Of a stretch of DNA of 40,674 nt, positions 5,373-16,675 are shown piece after piece. Origin of the DNA: a virus. The notes under the pieces are model-generated. The model did no database searches and had not been told where the DNA came from. It saw nothing but the letters and a program-made list of their open reading frames with translations. Within the stretch, counting starts at the first letter, position 1, and each line of letters starts with the position of its first letter. Location: the IMG/VR virus record IMGVR_UViG_3300021357_000004, positions 1 through 40,674 of that record; one strand, given 5' to 3'. The position numbers and the translations under genes are program-made.

Positions 5373-6329
5373 ATGGGCGACGTGGACGGGCTTCTCAGTT
5401 GGGACGAGTGGCTGGCGCTAGAACTTGGCGAGCCGGAGTGGTTGATTCCCAACCTGCTGGAACGCGGGGGGGCCGGGCTGTTACATGGCGGGATACAGAG
5501 TTATAAGTCCTTTCTATCCTTGCGGTTGTGTTTGGACCTCGCCGCCGGGCAGTCGGTCTTTGGCCTCTTCCCGCCCGCCCCCGCGCGGCCAAGCATCCTC
5601 CTCCAGGCAGAGGGGTCGAAGAAAGCCTGGCAACGTCGTATGCTCAGACTGCAACAGGATTACCCGGCGGGGATACCGTTCTCGTCTAGGCATACGCTTA
5701 CGGAAAAGTTGGACACACGAAAAGGTGACGAGTGGGTGCGGCGGGCAATCGCCTGCACCGGAGCAAACCTGCTGGTCGTGGACCCGATTGCTAACTTTTT
5801 CACCGGCGCGGACACTGACGCAGTTGCCCTGCAACGGTGGAGAGACGTGAGTAATGGCTGGCGAGAAGCCTACGACTGCGCCGTGTTGTGGGTACATCAT
5901 AACCGGCAGGCGATACGGTTCTTCGGTGACGGGAAGGTTGCGACGTTTGAGGGGGGGCCGGAGGAAGCGCGTGGGCGTGGGGACACCAAGGCGTGGGCCG
6001 ACCTGATATTGGGGCTGAAACGACGGGGGGACGAGACGGTATTAACGGTGGAGAAGGTGCGCGACGACCCTACCGGCCAGGCGTTTACGTTCAAGCTGGC
6101 CGCGGGGAAGCTCGTACTCGCACAAGAGGCGGACGGGCTTGAAAAGGTAGTGCTGGCCGCGATAGCGGGCGGGGATAGGTGGGTGGCGGAATTGACGGGC
6201 GAGGTCGCGCAACAGACCGGCGTATCGCCAAGCAGTGTGCGCCGCATGATAGCCCGGCTGGTAGAGCGGGGCGAAATTTACCAGGTCGCATACGGGACAA
6301 GGCAGAAAGTTGGAATAGGAGGAAAGTGA
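5373..6329 (+). CDS. RepA/DnaB-like replicative ATPase (AAA_25 type)
   Basis: A 318-residue RecA-fold ATPase. Walker A is GGIQSYKS (residues 39-46), with Tyr where most P-loops have Gly; YKS versions are, to my knowledge, found in other RepA/AAA_25 ATPases, so this need not mean inactivity. Walker B is NLLVVDP (132-138), and VHHNRQ (174-179) matches the sensor/H4 region. A following GDTKAWADLILGLKR stretch is typical of the family. Residues about 250-310 form a winged helix (GVSPSSVRRMIARLVERGEI). The likely role is helicase or helicase loader at the phage fork; no separate primase was found. The next start overlaps its stop. Confidence 0.75.
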   Translation: MGDVDGLLSWDEWLALELGEPEWLIPNLLERGGAGLLHGGIQSYKSFLSLRLCLDLAAGQSVFGLFPPAPARPSILLQAEGSKKAWQRRMLRLQQDYPAGIPFSSRHTLTEKLDTRKGDEWVRRAIACTGANLLVVDPIANFFTGADTDAVALQRWRDVSNGWREAYDCAVLWVHHNRQAIRFFGDGKVATFEGGPEEARGRGDTKAWADLILGLKRRGDETVLTVEKVRDDPTGQAFTFKLAAGKLVLAQEADGLEKVVLAAIAGGDRWVAELTGEVAQQTGVSPSSVRRMIARLVERGEIYQVAYGTRQKVGIGGK

Positions 6330-6427
6330 TGGATTGGATAGGGCTCGGCATCCTTATCGCCGCGGTGGGTGGTGGTGTGGCGATTTTGGTACAGTTAAGC
6401 CGCAATCCCCCCGGCGGGCGGGCGTAA
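6329..6427 (+). CDS. Single-span membrane microprotein
   Basis: A 32-residue peptide starts at ATG 6329, overlapping the helicase stop (TGATG) behind AGGAGGAAAG. Residues 2-22 (DWIGLGILIAAVGGGVAILV) are one hydrophobic segment, followed by a Pro/Gly/Arg tail. Its own stop overlaps the next ATG (TAATG), so it is translationally coupled on both sides. Function is unknown. It is one of at least five one-span microproteins in the rightward arm (1758, 3568, 6329, 6758, 17073). Confidence 0.55.
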   Translation: MDWIGLGILIAAVGGGVAILVQLSRNPPGGRA

Positions 6428-6651
6428 TGCGTGGAGTACGTGCTGGGGACGAGTTTAATACGCGGGGGGGTTGGCGGGCGCGCGTGATTTGGGTTCGCGC
6501 CGATGGCAAGGGCTTTTACACAGTCCATAAGCCGGAAACAGAGGATGAAATCGTGCCGGTTTACCACTTGCCGGATGGCTGCGCGGTGCCGATATTTGTG
6601 CTGTGCCCCCCACCGCGGTATGATGGCGACCCGGCGGATATACTGTTGTGA
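6427..6651 (+). CDS. TRGGW-family small protein (copy 1)
   Basis: A 74-residue protein starts at ATG 6427, sharing a base with the preceding TAA. It has the core TRGGWRARVIW at residues 12-22, then a beta-rich body (GKGFYTVHKP, IVPVYHLPDGCAVPIFVLC) ending in a Pro-rich stretch. The same TRGGWRA-x-V-x-W core followed by a basic turn and V-H opens the product of 12347-12580, so the two are paralogues within one genome. Function is unknown; the fold looks like a small SH3-type or OB-type barrel. Its stop lies 9 bp before the tmRNA-like RNA. Confidence 0.6.
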   Translation: MRGVRAGDEFNTRGGWRARVIWVRADGKGFYTVHKPETEDEIVPVYHLPDGCAVPIFVLCPPPRYDGDPADILL

Positions 6652-6659
6652 GCTCATGT

Positions 6660-6743
6660 GGGGGAGTGAGGGCTCGACGGCGCGCGAAAACCCACAAGGG
6701 ACGTGCGTCGGACGCGGTGTTCGACTCACCGCCTCCTCCACCA
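6660..6743 (+). ncRNA. Minimal tmRNA-like RNA (tRNA-like domain without tag body)
   Basis: The 5' acceptor strand GGGGGAG (6660-6666) pairs with CTCCTCC (6733-6739), giving seven pairs including G3-U70, the alanine identity pair. A73 (6740) and an encoded CCA (6741-6743) follow. The T arm is GCGGTG (6714-6719), loop TTCGACT, CACCGC (6727-6732). CTCGACGG (6673-6680) and CGGACGCGG (6709-6717) match the two best conserved tmRNA signatures. Between them there is only a P2-like stem (6680-6684 with 6702-6706) and a CCC-ACAA-GGG hairpin (6691-6700). A normal tmRNA would have several hundred bases with pseudoknots and a tag frame. Oddity: the T stem can form six pairs rather than five. There is no anticodon arm, so it is not an ordinary tRNA. 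It lies between coupled genes and needs processing from their transcript. Confidence 0.65.
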
Positions 6744-6757
6744 ACCAAAGGAGAAAA

Positions 6758-6877
6758 ATGAGCAAGACGAATTTCACTAAAGGACCGCCAGGGGGCGAGG
6801 AAGTTGGCATCGTGATACTTATCGTTGGATTAACTGTTACAGGAATCTGTCTAGTTCTTTATCGGATGCTGACATGA
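6758..6877 (+). CDS. Single-span membrane microprotein
   Basis: A 39-residue protein starts at ATG 6758, 15 bases after the CCA end of the tmRNA-like RNA, with AAAGGAGAAAA as ribosome site. Residues 16-35 (VGIVILIVGLTVTGICLVLY) form one transmembrane span after a basic, Gly-Pro-rich head (SKTNFTKGPPGGEE). The stop overlaps the next ATG (ATGA). Function is unknown. Processing of the RNA upstream would leave this gene's message with a very short leader. Confidence 0.6.
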   Translation: MSKTNFTKGPPGGEEVGIVILIVGLTVTGICLVLYRMLT

Positions 6878-9578: not shown

Positions 9579-10474
9579 TACGTGACGGCTATTGGGGCAG
9601 CTATCTTTTCTACGGGCCACCCGGCGGCGGCAAGACCGACTTGCTTACTAGCGCATTTTGGGACGTGCGCGCCCGGCGCGAGGTGGCGCGTGGCAAGTGG
9701 ATTACGTTCGGGCGTGAAGGCAATCCGTTCTTGCATGTACCTGAGTCCTGCCGCACGACCAGTGGGGGAATGAGCCTGCGCTTTACAGTCCCCAACCTGG
9801 ACAATACCACTTGGCTCGACCGCTTCGACAAGTTCACCACCGTGCTTCTCGAACAGGCACATCGCGAGCACCCGCTTGACGTGCTCGGCATAGATGGGCT
9901 CTCTGAGTTCGACATGCTATACGAGCGTACATTCGGTGGTGGAGACGGCGATGCCAACAAATTCGCCAAGTGGAATGGCCTCATGGACAAGTTCTTCGCC
10001 ATCATGCAACGTCTCGACCCGAACGAGCTCGGCTGTCATGTGATAATGACGGCGCGAGTGCGAGAGCGCAAGCGCGGCACGGAGGAAGAGGAAAAAGCGC
10101 GACGCAAGTCGGACTTTGAATCTGTATCGGCGGATGACCCCTTCGACTACTACCCCAGCATCCGCGGGGGCTTCAAGGACTGGCTCGCCCATTACTTTGA
10201 GAATGTGTTTTACATTCACACGCGCAAGCCCCCCAAGGGTAAGACGCTGGACGACCCGCAGCATGTGGTGCAGTTAATTACATTGGGTGACTACGTTACC
10301 AAATTGCAGGGGGAGCGCGAGTGGTTGGCCGCGGGGTATCCGCGCGAGCTTGCAAATACCAACTTCTACGCCATCCAACACAGACTGGAAAATTTGCTCG
10401 GTCTGCCACACATATTGCCTATGGAGGTGCAGGATGCTTCGGTCGTACCCGCAAGTATACAGCCTGGGGCATAA
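9575..10474 (+). CDS. Sak4/RecA-like P-loop ATPase (annealing or recombination)
   Basis: A 299-residue protein from GTG 9575 (GTGA overlap; GGAGGGAGCA upstream). The P-loop is GPPGGGKT at residues 14-21, very near the N-terminus. The Walker B strand is DVLGIDGLSEFD, followed by a Gly-rich GGGDGDANKFAKW loop; VIMTARVRERKRG serves as sensor 1. This fits phage AAA_24/Sak4-type RecA-fold proteins, which promote single-strand annealing with an SSB. Neighbouring exonuclease genes and the possible SSB at 11395 support that role. A RepA-like function is less likely, since 5373 already provides one. Confidence 0.7.
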   Translation: MIRDGYWGSYLFYGPPGGGKTDLLTSAFWDVRARREVARGKWITFGREGNPFLHVPESCRTTSGGMSLRFTVPNLDNTTWLDRFDKFTTVLLEQAHREHPLDVLGIDGLSEFDMLYERTFGGGDGDANKFAKWNGLMDKFFAIMQRLDPNELGCHVIMTARVRERKRGTEEEEKARRKSDFESVSADDPFDYYPSIRGGFKDWLAHYFENVFYIHTRKPPKGKTLDDPQHVVQLITLGDYVTKLQGEREWLAAGYPRELANTNFYAIQHRLENLLGLPHILPMEVQDASVVPASIQPGA

Positions 10475-11390
10475 GGCCATCGCGGACCTCCTCCTGGGAC
10501 CGGTAGTGGTGCAGGAGAAGGTGGACGGGTCTCAGTTCTCCTTCGGCCTGATAGATGGCACGGTCTACATGCGGTCGAAAGGGGCCGATATAAGTCCCGA
10601 AAGTCCAGACAAGCTCTTCTCTGCCGCGCGAGAAACTGCGATGGGATTGGCCACTGCCGGGCTGCTTGCGGAGGGATATACATATCGGGGGGAAGTGTTA
10701 AGCAAGCCGCGACACAATACGCTCTGCTACAGCCGGGTGCCCCGCGGTAATATCGTATTGTTCGATGTTGACAGCGGGCTGGAAGACTATGCTCCTCCCG
10801 ACATATTGGCCGCAGTGGGGGAGCATATCGGCCTGGAAGTAGTGCCAACCCTGTATTCGGGCGAGCTCACCGCGCTCTCTCAGTTAGAAGAGCTCTTGGC
10901 GCGCGAGTCTTTTTTGGGCGGGACGAAAATAGAGGGCGTGGTGATTAAGAATTACGCGCGCTTCGGCATAGACAAGAAGGTGTTGATGGGCAAGCTCGTA
11001 TCAGAGGCGTTCAAGGAAGTGCATGGCGCGGATTGGCACGCACGTAACCCGCACGGCAAGGATGTAGTGGCGGGGATTATAGAGAGCTTGCGGGTAGAGG
11101 CGCGGTGGGCAAAAGCAGTGCAGCACTCCCGCGAAGCAGGCACGCTCACCGAGAGCGCAAAGGACATAGGCCCGCTCATACAATCGGTAATAGCGGATGT
11201 GTTGCGCGAGGAGGGGGCGGAAATCCGGGAAATCCTGTTCGACCATTTCTGGCGTGAAATCTCACGGGGTCTCCCGCGTGGCTTGCCGGAGTGGTACAAG
11301 CGGCAACTGGCCGCACAGCAATTTGAGAAGGAGGTAGAGACGCCGAACTCACAACTGAATAGCGCGCTCGAACACGAAGGAAAGGAGTGA
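10434..11390 (+). CDS. Nucleic acid ligase (Rnl2-like RNA ligase family)
   Basis: A 318-residue protein. I choose ATG 10434 (GAGGTGCAGG upstream), which overlaps the preceding gene by 41 bp, because the conserved N-terminus (RSYPQVYSLGHKAIADLL) starts there. Ligase motif I is EKVDG (residues 28-32, Lys29 nucleophile). Motif III is YRGEVL (84-89), IIIa NIVLFDV (106-112), IV EGVVIKN (167-173) and V KKVLMGKLV (181-189). It activates a 5' phosphate with ATP and seals nicks. The motif spacing fits RNA ligase 2-type enzymes better than replicative DNA ligases, and the C-terminal 120 residues are helical. It may repair RNA cut by host defences. Substrate is inferred. Confidence 0.75.
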   Translation: MLRSYPQVYSLGHKAIADLLLGPVVVQEKVDGSQFSFGLIDGTVYMRSKGADISPESPDKLFSAARETAMGLATAGLLAEGYTYRGEVLSKPRHNTLCYSRVPRGNIVLFDVDSGLEDYAPPDILAAVGEHIGLEVVPTLYSGELTALSQLEELLARESFLGGTKIEGVVIKNYARFGIDKKVLMGKLVSEAFKEVHGADWHARNPHGKDVVAGIIESLRVEARWAKAVQHSREAGTLTESAKDIGPLIQSVIADVLREEGAEIREILFDHFWREISRGLPRGLPEWYKRQLAAQQFEKEVETPNSQLNSALEHEGKE

Positions 11391-13871: not shown

Positions 13872-14070
13872 CCAGCAAGCGCGCGATAGCCTTGCACGGG
13901 AAATTTGGCGCCTTCGCAAGGCGGTTCATATCGACAGAACGAGACCTTTTGCCAACTGGTGCCGCGGCTTCATTATTGGCTTCGCTACGGCCCTAGAGCC
14001 CACGGCAAAAACAGGAAGGCAGGTGGTGCGAATTGTCAAGATGCGAGTTTTCCAGTACCGCCGTGCTTAA
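13849..14070 (+). CDS. Small basic hypothetical protein
   Basis: I take GTG 13849 as start because GAGGAGGA (13833-13840) is 8 bases away; ATG 13855 is the alternative. The 73-residue product is basic and helical, with a central semi-hydrophobic helix (ANWCRGFIIGFATALEP) and an Arg-rich end (VRIVKMRVFQYRRA). The last 38 bp overlap the polymerase gene, whose ribosome site (AGGTGG, 14021-14026) lies within it, so it may couple translation into the polymerase. Confidence 0.5.
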   Translation: MNMTLRSDQQARDSLAREIWRLRKAVHIDRTRPFANWCRGFIIGFATALEPTAKTGRQVVRIVKMRVFQYRRA

Positions 14071-16675
14071 CGCCCCCCACGATTGCGCGCTCTGCCCGCG
14101 CCTCGTGAGTTCGCGCCGTGCTGTCGTCAATGGGGCTGGCCCATTGCCCGCGCGCGTGCTCGTGGTCGCGCAAGCGCCAGGGCGCGAAGAGGAAGTTAAG
14201 GGCGAACCGCTGGTGGGCTGGTCCGGCAAGCGCCTGGACTATCTCGCTGGCCTCGCTGGGCTCGAGACGGGCACATACCGGAAAGAGAATATCGTGCGGT
14301 GTCGCCCGCCGCGTGGGAAGGGCGGCGACCTGCCGCCCAAGCCGGACGAGATTGGCAACTGCGCGCCCTTTTTGCACGCCGCAATCTCCGCGTGCCAGCC
14401 CGAATTCATCATCACGCTGGGCGCGTCCGCCCTCAGATGGTTCCTACCGAACGCAAAATTGGAGACATGTCATGGAAAACCCATCACTTTTAGTGGTGAT
14501 AGTTACTATGGCGGGGGTTTGGGGAGCGATTTGGTTTTTTATTCTCCGTTCCAAGTAGTTCCAATGTACCACCCGGCTTTTGCCCACCCTTCCCGCAACC
14601 CTAGCATGGCCCCAGTTATGTGTGAGGACTGGGTGCGCCTCGGTGAACTGTTACGTGGGACTCAACAGCAGGAGTTAGGACAGTACAAGGCTGTCTCAAA
14701 GATAGAAACCTTTTCTAGCAATTACACTAACCCCTTCACGATGCCAGAGAACTCCGGCCTGCGAGAATTCGCGTTCGACTATGAGACCACCGACCCAAAT
14801 TGGCGGGGCACGTTCCAGGCCGTGCGCGCCCGGCCCATCGGTGTGTCTGTAGCTGTTAAAGAGGGAGAGGCGGTGTACTGGGCGACGGAGGACGTGTTCT
14901 TGTTAAAGCCCGCTTTAGAAGCCCCCGGCGTTATCAAGGTGGCACATAACGCAGTCTTTGAGTACATAGTGTCGCGCGGGCAGGGCATAACTCCCGTCAA
15001 CCTACATTGCACCAAGCTCATGGCTTACGTGCTTCGCTGCTCCTCCACCCACCTCAAGGACCTTGCGTGGTCCGAGCTTGGCATTAAGCAGACGCGCTTC
15101 AAGGAGGTGGACTGGGCGAACCCGCAGGCGGTCGCGCAATATGGTGCAGCGGACTCGGACATCACCCTCCGCCTCTATCACCGCCTCGGCGCCCGTCTGC
15201 GCGAACAAAAGCTGTGGGACTTGTATGAGATGGAGCGCGCCTGCCTCCCCGTGCTTGCCGAGATGACGATTGCGGGCATCAAGTTCAATGCCGCCCCGCT
15301 CGCCTGGCTTGAACAGCAGTTAACGGGGGAATTGCTGGAGCGCGAGGCCGACCTGCTCAAATACTTCCATGCCGACGACCTGCCCGCCGAGGATGCAGTC
15401 AACTTGAACTCGGACGCGCAACTGCGCTCGCTGCTATATGGACCAGCGTGTTGGCGGGCGAGTGTGGCGCGGGAGTTGAAGGGCCGGTGGGTGCATGATT
15501 GTGGTACTCCTGAGAGCAATTACCCAGATTTACGCCGACCGCACGGGGTAGCTGATTGTGCTGATGGGGTGCGGCTTGGCGCTCAAGCCGTGCTCGCCTG
15601 GCTACCCCCTGGGCTAGCCTGGCGCGTGCGGGCGCGCACACCAACCGGCGAGCCCGCGGTGGACATGGATACCCTGCGGTTATATGAACACCCGGTGGTG
15701 GGGGATTTGGTGCGAGTCAAGTCGATTCGCCAGGCGCTCGAAAACAATATCACCCGCCTCCCGCAACTCGTCCAGGAAGATGGCAGGATTCACCCAGTAT
15801 TCCACCAGGCGGGGCAGTGGGAGGAGCGCGCGGACGCGTCAAAAGAAGCGCCCCGCACTGGTCGCCTAGCGAGCTCTGGCCCGAATCTCCAGAACATAAC
15901 CCACCACGGCGATAGCGAACGCCCCTACGTGGCTGAGTGGGCGCGGCATATACGTCGCGGCTTCGTGGCCTCTCCGGGCATGGTGCTGGTCAAGGTTGAC
16001 ATCGGCCAGGAGGAACCGCGTATTGGCGCGTTCTTGGCCCAAGACCAGGACTTGCTCAACGAATTAGAGTCGGGCGATGTGTACTGCCCGGTCGCCGCGC
16101 TTGAATTCGGGCGCCCCATCACCAAGGCGGATACCGACGAGCGGCAAATAGGAAAGCGGGGGTGGATGGCATGGTTGAATGGGGCAGGCCCCAAGGGGAT
16201 TCAACAGTCCGCCTTTTGGCTCTCGACCGCCGAGGCCGCGCGCGTGGTATCGTACCTACAAAATCGCCACCCAAGAGTCGAGGAGTACCGTGCGCGGCTT
16301 GTTTCTTCGCTCTACACGAATGGGTATACGGAGACACACTTTGGGCGCCGCATTTACCGCCCCGAGGTCTGGTCCGGCCCTGGCCCCGCGCGCGACCACG
16401 CCGAGCGAAGCGTGATGCCTGACGCCATCCAGGGCACCGCCGCGGACGTGATGAAGCTCTGGCTGCCCAAGATTGCTCGCCTGCTTGCCGACGTGCCCGA
16501 GGCGCGCGCACAACTGTTACTTAGCGTTCACGACGAGTGCGTCTTGGAATGCCTGCCCGACCATACCGACATTGTGGTCAATCGCGTGCGCGCCGCCCTC
16601 TCCGGCATACTGCCGGTGCGCTTACCCGCCGAGACATATGTTGGAGAGAACTGGTCCGACATGCGTGCGGTATGA
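14033..16675 (+). CDS. Uracil-DNA glycosylase / exonuclease / family A DNA polymerase fusion
   Basis: An 880-residue protein from TTG 14033 (AGGTGG six bases upstream). Residues 15-210 are a family-4 UDG: Fe-S cysteines 18, 21, 90 and 110, the VVAQAPGREEE loop (45-54), NIVRCRPP, and PMYHPAF with the catalytic-site His at 180. Residues about 245-420 are a DnaQ-type 3'-5' exonuclease with D249 and E251 in FDYETT. Residues about 560-880 are a PolA domain: RTGRLASSGPNLQNI (about 607), motif A VKVDIGQEEPR (about 655), the O-helix from RQIGKRGWMAWLNGAG (about 703) and motif C VHDE (about 832). By my alignment, the positions of E. coli Phe762 and Tyr766 are Met and Asn, which is unusual. It is the phage replicase with built-in uracil repair. 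Confidence 0.85.
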   Translation: MSRCEFSSTAVLNAPHDCALCPRLVSSRRAVVNGAGPLPARVLVVAQAPGREEEVKGEPLVGWSGKRLDYLAGLAGLETGTYRKENIVRCRPPRGKGGDLPPKPDEIGNCAPFLHAAISACQPEFIITLGASALRWFLPNAKLETCHGKPITFSGDSYYGGGLGSDLVFYSPFQVVPMYHPAFAHPSRNPSMAPVMCEDWVRLGELLRGTQQQELGQYKAVSKIETFSSNYTNPFTMPENSGLREFAFDYETTDPNWRGTFQAVRARPIGVSVAVKEGEAVYWATEDVFLLKPALEAPGVIKVAHNAVFEYIVSRGQGITPVNLHCTKLMAYVLRCSSTHLKDLAWSELGIKQTRFKEVDWANPQAVAQYGAADSDITLRLYHRLGARLREQKLWDLYEMERACLPVLAEMTIAGIKFNAAPLAWLEQQLTGELLEREADLLKYFHADDLPAEDAVNLNSDAQLRSLLYGPACWRASVARELKGRWVHDCGTPESNYPDLRRPHGVADCADGVRLGAQAVLAWLPPGLAWRVRARTPTGEPAVDMDTLRLYEHPVVGDLVRVKSIRQALENNITRLPQLVQEDGRIHPVFHQAGQWEERADASKEAPRTGRLASSGPNLQNITHHGDSERPYVAEWARHIRRGFVASPGMVLVKVDIGQEEPRIGAFLAQDQDLLNELESGDVYCPVAALEFGRPITKADTDERQIGKRGWMAWLNGAGPKGIQQSAFWLSTAEAARVVSYLQNRHPRVEEYRARLVSSLYTNGYTETHFGRRIYRPEVWSGPGPARDHAERSVMPDAIQGTAADVMKLWLPKIARLLADVPEARAQLLLSVHDECVLECLPDHTDIVVNRVRAALSGILPVRLPAETYVGENWSDMRAV

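Follow-up and report, generated by a model that had tools for sequence, protein, structure and literature searches.

Genomic Neighbourhood of the RNA

The window, that is, the whole stretch of 40,674 b analysed here, is an IMG/VR virus record. The virus is a tailed phage by its gene content, which comprises the large terminase subunit, a head maturation protease, a fusion of UDG with PolA, a PD-(D/E)XK exonuclease, and an RNA ligase. No integrase was detected among the scanned window proteins. A short tmRNA-like RNA, hereafter mini-tmRNA, nearly fills the gap between the end of one ORF (6651) and the start of a 39-aa ORF (6758), with which it may be co-transcribed (Table 1). The sequence directly preceding the RNA gave no promoter match; a TATACT located 21 nt upstream is weak. 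Neither the RNA nor its flanking sequences had a nucleotide match among 50,697 phage records, and no IMG/VR relatives were found via the neighbouring helicase of the window. Elsewhere in the window, a uracil-DNA glycosylase domain is fused N-terminally to a family A DNA polymerase (14033-16675), and the RNA ligase (phrog_548) is encoded at 10287-11390. An RNA ligase near a mini-tmRNA was also observed in the Streptomyces phages BRock, LuckySocke, and GiJojo.

Table 1. Coordinates of the mini-tmRNA, its structural elements, and the adjacent features of the window.
Feature	Position	Strand	Basis
AAA_25 (RepA/DnaB-like) ATPase, upstream	5373..6329	+	PF13481, E 3.2e-25
74-aa ORF, no family; stop 8 nt upstream of the RNA	6427..6651	+	
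TLD-only tmRNA (mini-tmRNA), 84 nt including encoded CCA	6660..6743	+	RF00023, 53 bits; R1, 63.9 bits
Acceptor 5' strand GGGGGAG, contains G3 of G3-U70	6660..6666	+	sequence; both model alignments
D-like region TGAGGGC TCGAC (tmRNA GG, UCGAC)	6667..6678	+	sequence; tmRNA consensus alignment
P2 5' strand GGCGCGCG, 8 bp, partner 6702-6709	6679..6686	+	sequence; 7 modelled pairs covary, 53 contexts
Internal loop AAAA / A and apical hairpin CCC-ACAA-GGG, replacing the tag/pseudoknot body	6687..6701	+	sequence; equivalent hairpin in relatives
P2 3' strand CGTGCGTC	6702..6709	+	sequence
GGAC, variable-loop signature of tmRNA	6710..6713	+	sequence; RF00023 alignment
T arm, 6-bp stem GCGGTG/CACCGC (one pair extra), loop TTCGACT	6714..6732	+	sequence; bases inserted on both sides relative to RF00023 and R1
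Acceptor 3' strand CTCCTCC (U70), A73, CCA	6733..6743	+	sequence
Shine-Dalgarno-like AAAGGAG, begins 4 nt past the encoded CCA	6747..6753	+	sequence
Hydrophobic 39-aa ORF immediately 3' of the RNA, probably with one membrane span	6758..6877	+	sequence; inference

Identity and Structure of the Window Copy

The cmscan search with Rfam assigned positions 6660-6743 of the plus strand to the tmRNA family RF00023 with 53.0 bits (gathering score 47; E 3.3e-18). The alignment extends from the first to the last model position (1-374), and 294 model positions are spanned by 6 bases. This Infernal result agrees with an earlier reading of the sequence alone (the sequence-only reading), which had proposed a tmRNA-like RNA without the tag body; its structural description, comprising a 7-bp acceptor (GGGGGAG/CTCCTCC) with G3-U70, A73, an encoded CCA, the T loop TTCGACT, and the TCGAC and GGAC signatures, was likewise reproduced. 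The 5-bp stem that it placed in the position of the tag body proved to be P2, an 8-bp helix capped by CCC-ACAA-GGG. A covariance model (R1) trained on 23 mini-tmRNAs, the window copy being left out, recovered the window RNA with a score of 63.9 bits (E 2e-13) and standard pairs throughout, and this was the sole R1 match within the 40,674-b window up to E 5. ARAGORN made no tRNA or tmRNA call for 6660-6743, and the permuted tmRNA model RF04321 had no match anywhere in the window.

The window RNA is colinear, in the order 5' acceptor, P2, T arm, and 3' acceptor, and is not of the two-piece permuted design. It has the 7-bp acceptor, G3-U70, A73, and T arm of the tmRNA tRNA-like domain (TLD), together with the UCGAC and GGAC signatures and the P2 helix. 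The anticodon arm is absent, its place being taken by the 8-bp P2 with a 4-nt apical loop. The TCGAC-to-GGAC spacing is only 31 nt; the mRNA-like domain (resume codon, tag frame, and stop) is missing, as is the pseudoknot ring according to the RF00023 alignment. The molecule is thus a TLD-only phage tmRNA, a phage-borne RNA that has the full tRNA-like domain and is devoid of the mRNA-like one. By these sequence criteria, it is predicted to be chargeable and unable to tag, as had been suggested earlier.

The canonical fold of the window RNA has a free energy of -37.2 kcal/mol versus -40.1 for the MFE structure, and the MFE differs from that of shuffled sequences by only z = -2.0. The reality of the RNA rests on homology and covariation, folding energy being weak support. 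Since the T stem of the window copy has 6 bp, its acceptor-T stack comprises 13 bp instead of 12. The window copy is alone among 120 RNAs in this feature, a form that was outside the reach of most scans. A 13-bp acceptor-T stack is unusual among EF-Tu substrates, with the exception of tRNA-Sec.

Distribution and Genomic Contexts of the Family

Relatives were collected with pattern scans for the two signatures (TCGAC and GGAC) at short spacing, and the matches were then filtered by structure. G1-G3, both signatures, and a portion of the T arm were set by the patterns; U70 and A73 were left free. At least 120 distinct mini-tmRNAs of 69-94 nt, mostly 80-84 nt, were found in public viral contigs. 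Including the window, at least 176 loci fell into at least 53 groups without any common neighbouring protein. In one strict scan, at least 37 viral-contig stretches were matched versus at least 18 in a much larger genome collection. That collection holds 85k genomes of bacteria and archaea, and of its 18 pattern matches only two were genuine copies, one on a contig binned as Mycobacterium (L139) and one on the chromosome of Planctomycetes bacterium syqfu (L145); nearly all of the other 16 were ordinary tmRNA 3' halves with a chance TCGAC. In the Planctomycetes chromosome (L145 1163-5530 and 7520-7604), a gene for an A32-like packaging ATPase (PF04665 above the cut-off) is located close to the mini-tmRNA, and a neighbouring protein is weakly similar to the coat protein P2_C; this gene content suggests an integrated non-tailed (double-jelly-roll) virus carrying a mini-tmRNA.

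Four general contexts were recognised. Context A, between the prohead protease and the HK97 major capsid protein, comprises at least 33 loci and Pontimonas phage phiPsal1, whose unannotated copy was found via the capsid protein rather than by pattern and has the same features (83.4 bits). Context B is a replication module in which the mini-tmRNA adjoins an AAA helicase (at least 17 loci); the window is of the same general kind. The context-B helicase is also present in the Beephvirinae Streptomyces phages Manuel, Romero, and FlowerPower, in which the mini-tmRNA is absent. In context C, the mini-tmRNA is located beside HNH, SSAP, and replication genes. Context D consists of tRNA arrays, including those of the cultured Streptomyces phages BRock, LuckySocke, GiJojo, Shaeky, pSt2308, and Alone3, where the copies are unannotated or lie under a hypothetical CDS. 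The hypothetical protein gp44 of GiJojo (L291 1989-2231), which overlaps the mini-tmRNA, is probably a misannotation.

When capsid-gene relatives were sampled regardless of the RNA, the mini-tmRNA was present in 14 of 80 and missing in 66, so that it is dispensable. None of the relatives lacking it has a full tmRNA at the capsid site, and the capsid-site mini-tmRNA therefore behaves like an accessory cassette subject to gain and loss. The sequence-only reading had allowed that the RNA might be an isolated deletion if related phages carried a complete tmRNA in its place; at the major-capsid site, no such phage was found.

Covariation and Charging Determinants

Covariation was evaluated in an alignment (A5) of 53 sequences, one copy per context. 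In this model-made alignment, which leans towards R1, 95.8% of the pair cells were standard, and two-sided changes occurred in 352 cells, compared with 108.5 after shuffling and no more than 87 in the slid controls; all seven P2 pairs (7/7) covary. A MAFFT alignment (A2, n = 23) gave a similar result, with 98.0% standard cells and 127 double changes versus 34.5. The compensatory changes on which the earlier reading had made its case depend were thus seen in both the acceptor and P2 across the 53 contexts.

Acceptor pairs 4-7 (four of the seven) vary freely, with compensation, across the 53 contexts. Pair 3 is G3-U70, the AlaRS identity pair, in 53/53 contexts, and position 73 is A in every one of them (53/53). 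In the larger set, U70 is found in 119 of 120 copies, the exception being a copy with a damaged acceptor strand (L165). The equivalents of U17 and A334 (in TCGAC and GGAC, respectively) are kept in the family, both motifs being part of the search pattern.

Expression Signals and Partner Genes

A -10-like TANNNT motif peaks at position -12 from G1 (16 of 119 copies versus about 2 at other offsets). The copies in the peak belong to contexts A and C, which are unrelated, and this placement suggests a transcription start at nucleotide 1 (G1) in both. A ribosome-binding site and a start codon occur within 45 nt 3' of the RNA in 36 of 115 copies versus 16 and 21 at control positions.

In the 50 carrier records, many of which are fragments, neither SmpB, nor a second, full-length tmRNA above the cut-off, nor peptidyl-tRNA hydrolase was detected (0/50 each); a release-factor domain occurs in one. 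Because the carrier records lack SmpB (50/50), host SmpB would be the partner. Whatever its role, the mini-tmRNA is predicted to work through host proteins, with the proviso that fragmentary records limit absence as proof.

Proposed Function and Alternative Explanations

In tmRNA, G3-U70 directs alanylation, and EF-Tu brings alanyl-tmRNA-SmpB to stalled ribosomes. By its sequence, the mini-tmRNA keeps the elements for charging, delivery, and SmpB contact and lacks only the parts used after peptidyl transfer, and it is probably charged and enters the ribosome. We consider it fairly likely that it competes with host tmRNA in an alanine-charged and SmpB-dependent form, drawing stalled ribosomes away from host tagging. 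The RNA would fold as the tRNA-like half of tmRNA, receive alanine from host AlaRS by way of G3-U70/A73, bind host SmpB and EF-Tu-GTP, and replace host tmRNA in ribosomes stalled on broken mRNAs. Because it has no tag frame, nascent chains would not be targeted to ClpXP-type proteases. As a net effect, host trans-translation would be outcompeted or blocked during infection by SmpB titration and occupied stalled ribosomes, presumably to the benefit of the phage.

Several observations favour such a charged competitor, including tmRNA homology that is missing only the middle part, the unlinked contexts, the covariation, the invariant G3-U70/A73, the carriers without SmpB, and the placement of the -10 box. 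SmpB Trp122 packs on A15, U17, and A334 of tmRNA (PMC8363625), and the contact residues kept in the family also speak for it. A statement in PMC4131195, citing Mao 2009, has TLD-only RNA strongly inhibiting tmRNA whether chargeable or not, perhaps via SmpB titration, and a statement in PMC11915505, citing the same work, has the form from Mycobacterium phage DS6A inhibiting endogenous tmRNA in E. coli. The reported inhibition supports the competitor, but its independence of charging, as cited, leaves the invariant charging determinants unexplained by itself. The 13-bp acceptor-T stack of the window copy, the dispensability of the RNA, and the lack of a promoter match in the window also count against it. 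A stronger version, in which phages of unrelated lineages have each retained a tmRNA that lacks the tag, carries alanine, enters stalled ribosomes, and accepts nascent chains, so that tag-free acceptance takes the place of tagging in an active takeover of rescue beyond an SmpB decoy, is regarded as possible but somewhat doubtful.

Of the functions guessed at in the sequence-only reading, a decoy and ribosome release are still the leading ones, and an AlaRS sponge, though possible, is less probable. The inhibition reported in PMC4131195 (citing Mao 2009) with or without chargeability was the basis there for proposing SmpB titration, and sequestration of SmpB alone would make charging unnecessary. 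Such a sponge gives no reason for keeping the AlaRS identity pair, and G3-U70 and A73 are constant in 53/53 contexts while the neighbouring acceptor pairs vary with compensation; we regard it as improbable and favour a charged competitor, since strictly conserved charging determinants argue for selection beyond SmpB titration. The same determinants would suit an RNA that needs to enter the peptidyl transferase centre and rescue ribosomes without a tag: the charged RNA with SmpB would take the nascent chain, the truncated mRNA would leave, and the peptidyl-RNA would drop off or be hydrolysed, recycling being the benefit. Mitochondrial tmRNAs without a tag frame persist alongside SmpB (PMC11915505), which is consistent with this possibility. 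We nevertheless consider it rather unlikely, as the TLD-only activity reported in PMC4131195 is inhibition and not rescue, and the carriers encode no peptidyl-tRNA hydrolase (0/50) and a single release-factor domain (1/50), although host enzymes could serve. Within the acceptor stem, conservation is highest at the charging determinants, which would also fit an RNA that acts as a sink for alanine or for AlaRS/EF-Tu or that donates alanyl groups to a non-ribosomal enzyme; such a role is very improbable, as SmpB-contact residues and a fixed 7-8-bp P2 would then be unnecessary and no recurrent aminoacyl-transferase neighbour was found among the clustered genes.

Two further explanations have hardly any probability. 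One is a cis-acting 5' leader, a tRNA-like element controlling the processing or translation of the gene directly 3'. It would account for the ribosome-binding site and start codon downstream of 36/115 copies and for the AAAGGAG and ATG following the window copy, but downstream genes vary by context (capsid, helicase, HNH, and tRNAs), and many copies are part of tRNA arrays or are flanked by a terminator-like hairpin on one side and the separate leader of the capsid gene on the other. The other, also raised in the sequence-only reading, is a deletion relic, or an attP fragment of host ssrA. The ssrA gene is a common integration target, att-site fragments are known, and full-length phage tmRNAs exist. 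An ssrA integration fragment would consist of the 3' end only and lie beside an integrase, whereas the window RNA has both ends, and no integrase was found near it among the scanned window proteins. In the family, both ends and P2 are kept and covary in at least 53 unlinked contexts. As compensated homologues exist in 53 unlinked contexts and no capsid-site relative has a full tmRNA at the matching site, the deletion relic is unsupported and is already refuted for the family as a whole.

Comparison with Known Systems

The TLD-only tmRNA as a kind is already known from one phage, so the earlier supposition that no minimal form had been described does not hold. Both PMC4131195 and PMC11915505 list Mycobacterium phage DS6A as having a 'TLD only' tmRNA (Mao et al. 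2009, PMID 19617710). The DS6A RNA resembles the mini-tmRNA in lacking the tag frame, a likeness by description, the DS6A sequence being outside the searched collections. In contrast to this single reported phage, the present family includes many unrelated phages and displays covariation and invariant charging determinants. As far as the literature was searched, the breadth of the family, its covariation, the cultured carriers, and the invariance of G3-U70 have not been reported.

Bacterial tmRNA (ssrA, RF00023) shares with the mini-tmRNA the G3-U70 acceptor, A73, the T arm, UCGAC, GGAC, P2, and the absence of an anticodon arm; the mini-tmRNA differs in having no mRNA-like domain, tag, or pseudoknots and in a P2 closed off by a small hairpin. 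Phage tmRNAs of full-length or permuted form (for example, those of Bxz1-type mycobacteriophages and of Melnitz) are likewise phage-borne but, unlike the mini-tmRNA, keep the tag frame, and none was present in the searched carriers. The jakobid mitochondrial tmRNA is a permuted form. Tag-less mitochondrial tmRNAs of jakobids and others and the ~65-bp plastid forms of Mallomonadaceae also possess a tRNA-like domain without a tag frame (PMC11915505); these are organellar, whereas the phage mini-tmRNA is one colinear molecule of 70-85 nt.

Since 2009, the TLD-only tmRNA has figured in the literature as an oddity of a single phage. Its occurrence in at least 53 unlinked contexts under clear structural selection, with carriers among phages propagated on laboratory Streptomyces strains, points to a general and directly testable phage strategy and indicates trans-translation as a routine phage target. 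It also explains tmRNA matches missed by annotation tools such as ARAGORN. The mini-tmRNA family is widespread in phages and largely unnoticed, and it probably competes with host tmRNA. The invariant G3-U70 leads to the sharp prediction that charging is required for function. If the takeover of host rescue is true, the mini-tmRNA would rank among the more widespread of those RNA-based factors for host takeover that have gone unrecognised in phages.

Other RNAs Recovered in the Searches

Several matches were rejected. L003 was a chance pattern match, L002 a piece of a permuted tmRNA, and the match in Gordonia Yeezy was limited to the tRNA-like 3' end beside an integrase. The RNAs of SlimJimmy, PaMx31, and Rb1 are full or permuted tmRNAs, and the match beside a release-factor gene in Tunturiibacter phage Tunturi_4 was dropped as a permuted full tmRNA. 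In Tunturi_4, the release-factor-domain gene lies directly 5' of the permuted full-length tmRNA (L124 2622-3383), a possible phage ribosome-rescue pair. Mycobacterium phage SlimJimmy carries a GOLLD RNA (L127 3809-4222; 215 bits) within a tRNA array, ~800 nt from its full tmRNA. The Microbacterium phages Armstrong (L374 1138-1230) and Katzastrophic (L373 1139-1230) contain an unannotated ~93-nt RNA beside two tRNAs, with a G3-U70 acceptor (GGGCCUG/CAGGUCC) and R1 scores of 39.5 and 36.2 bits, in which UCGAC and GGAC are absent; this RNA possibly represents another tRNA-like class.
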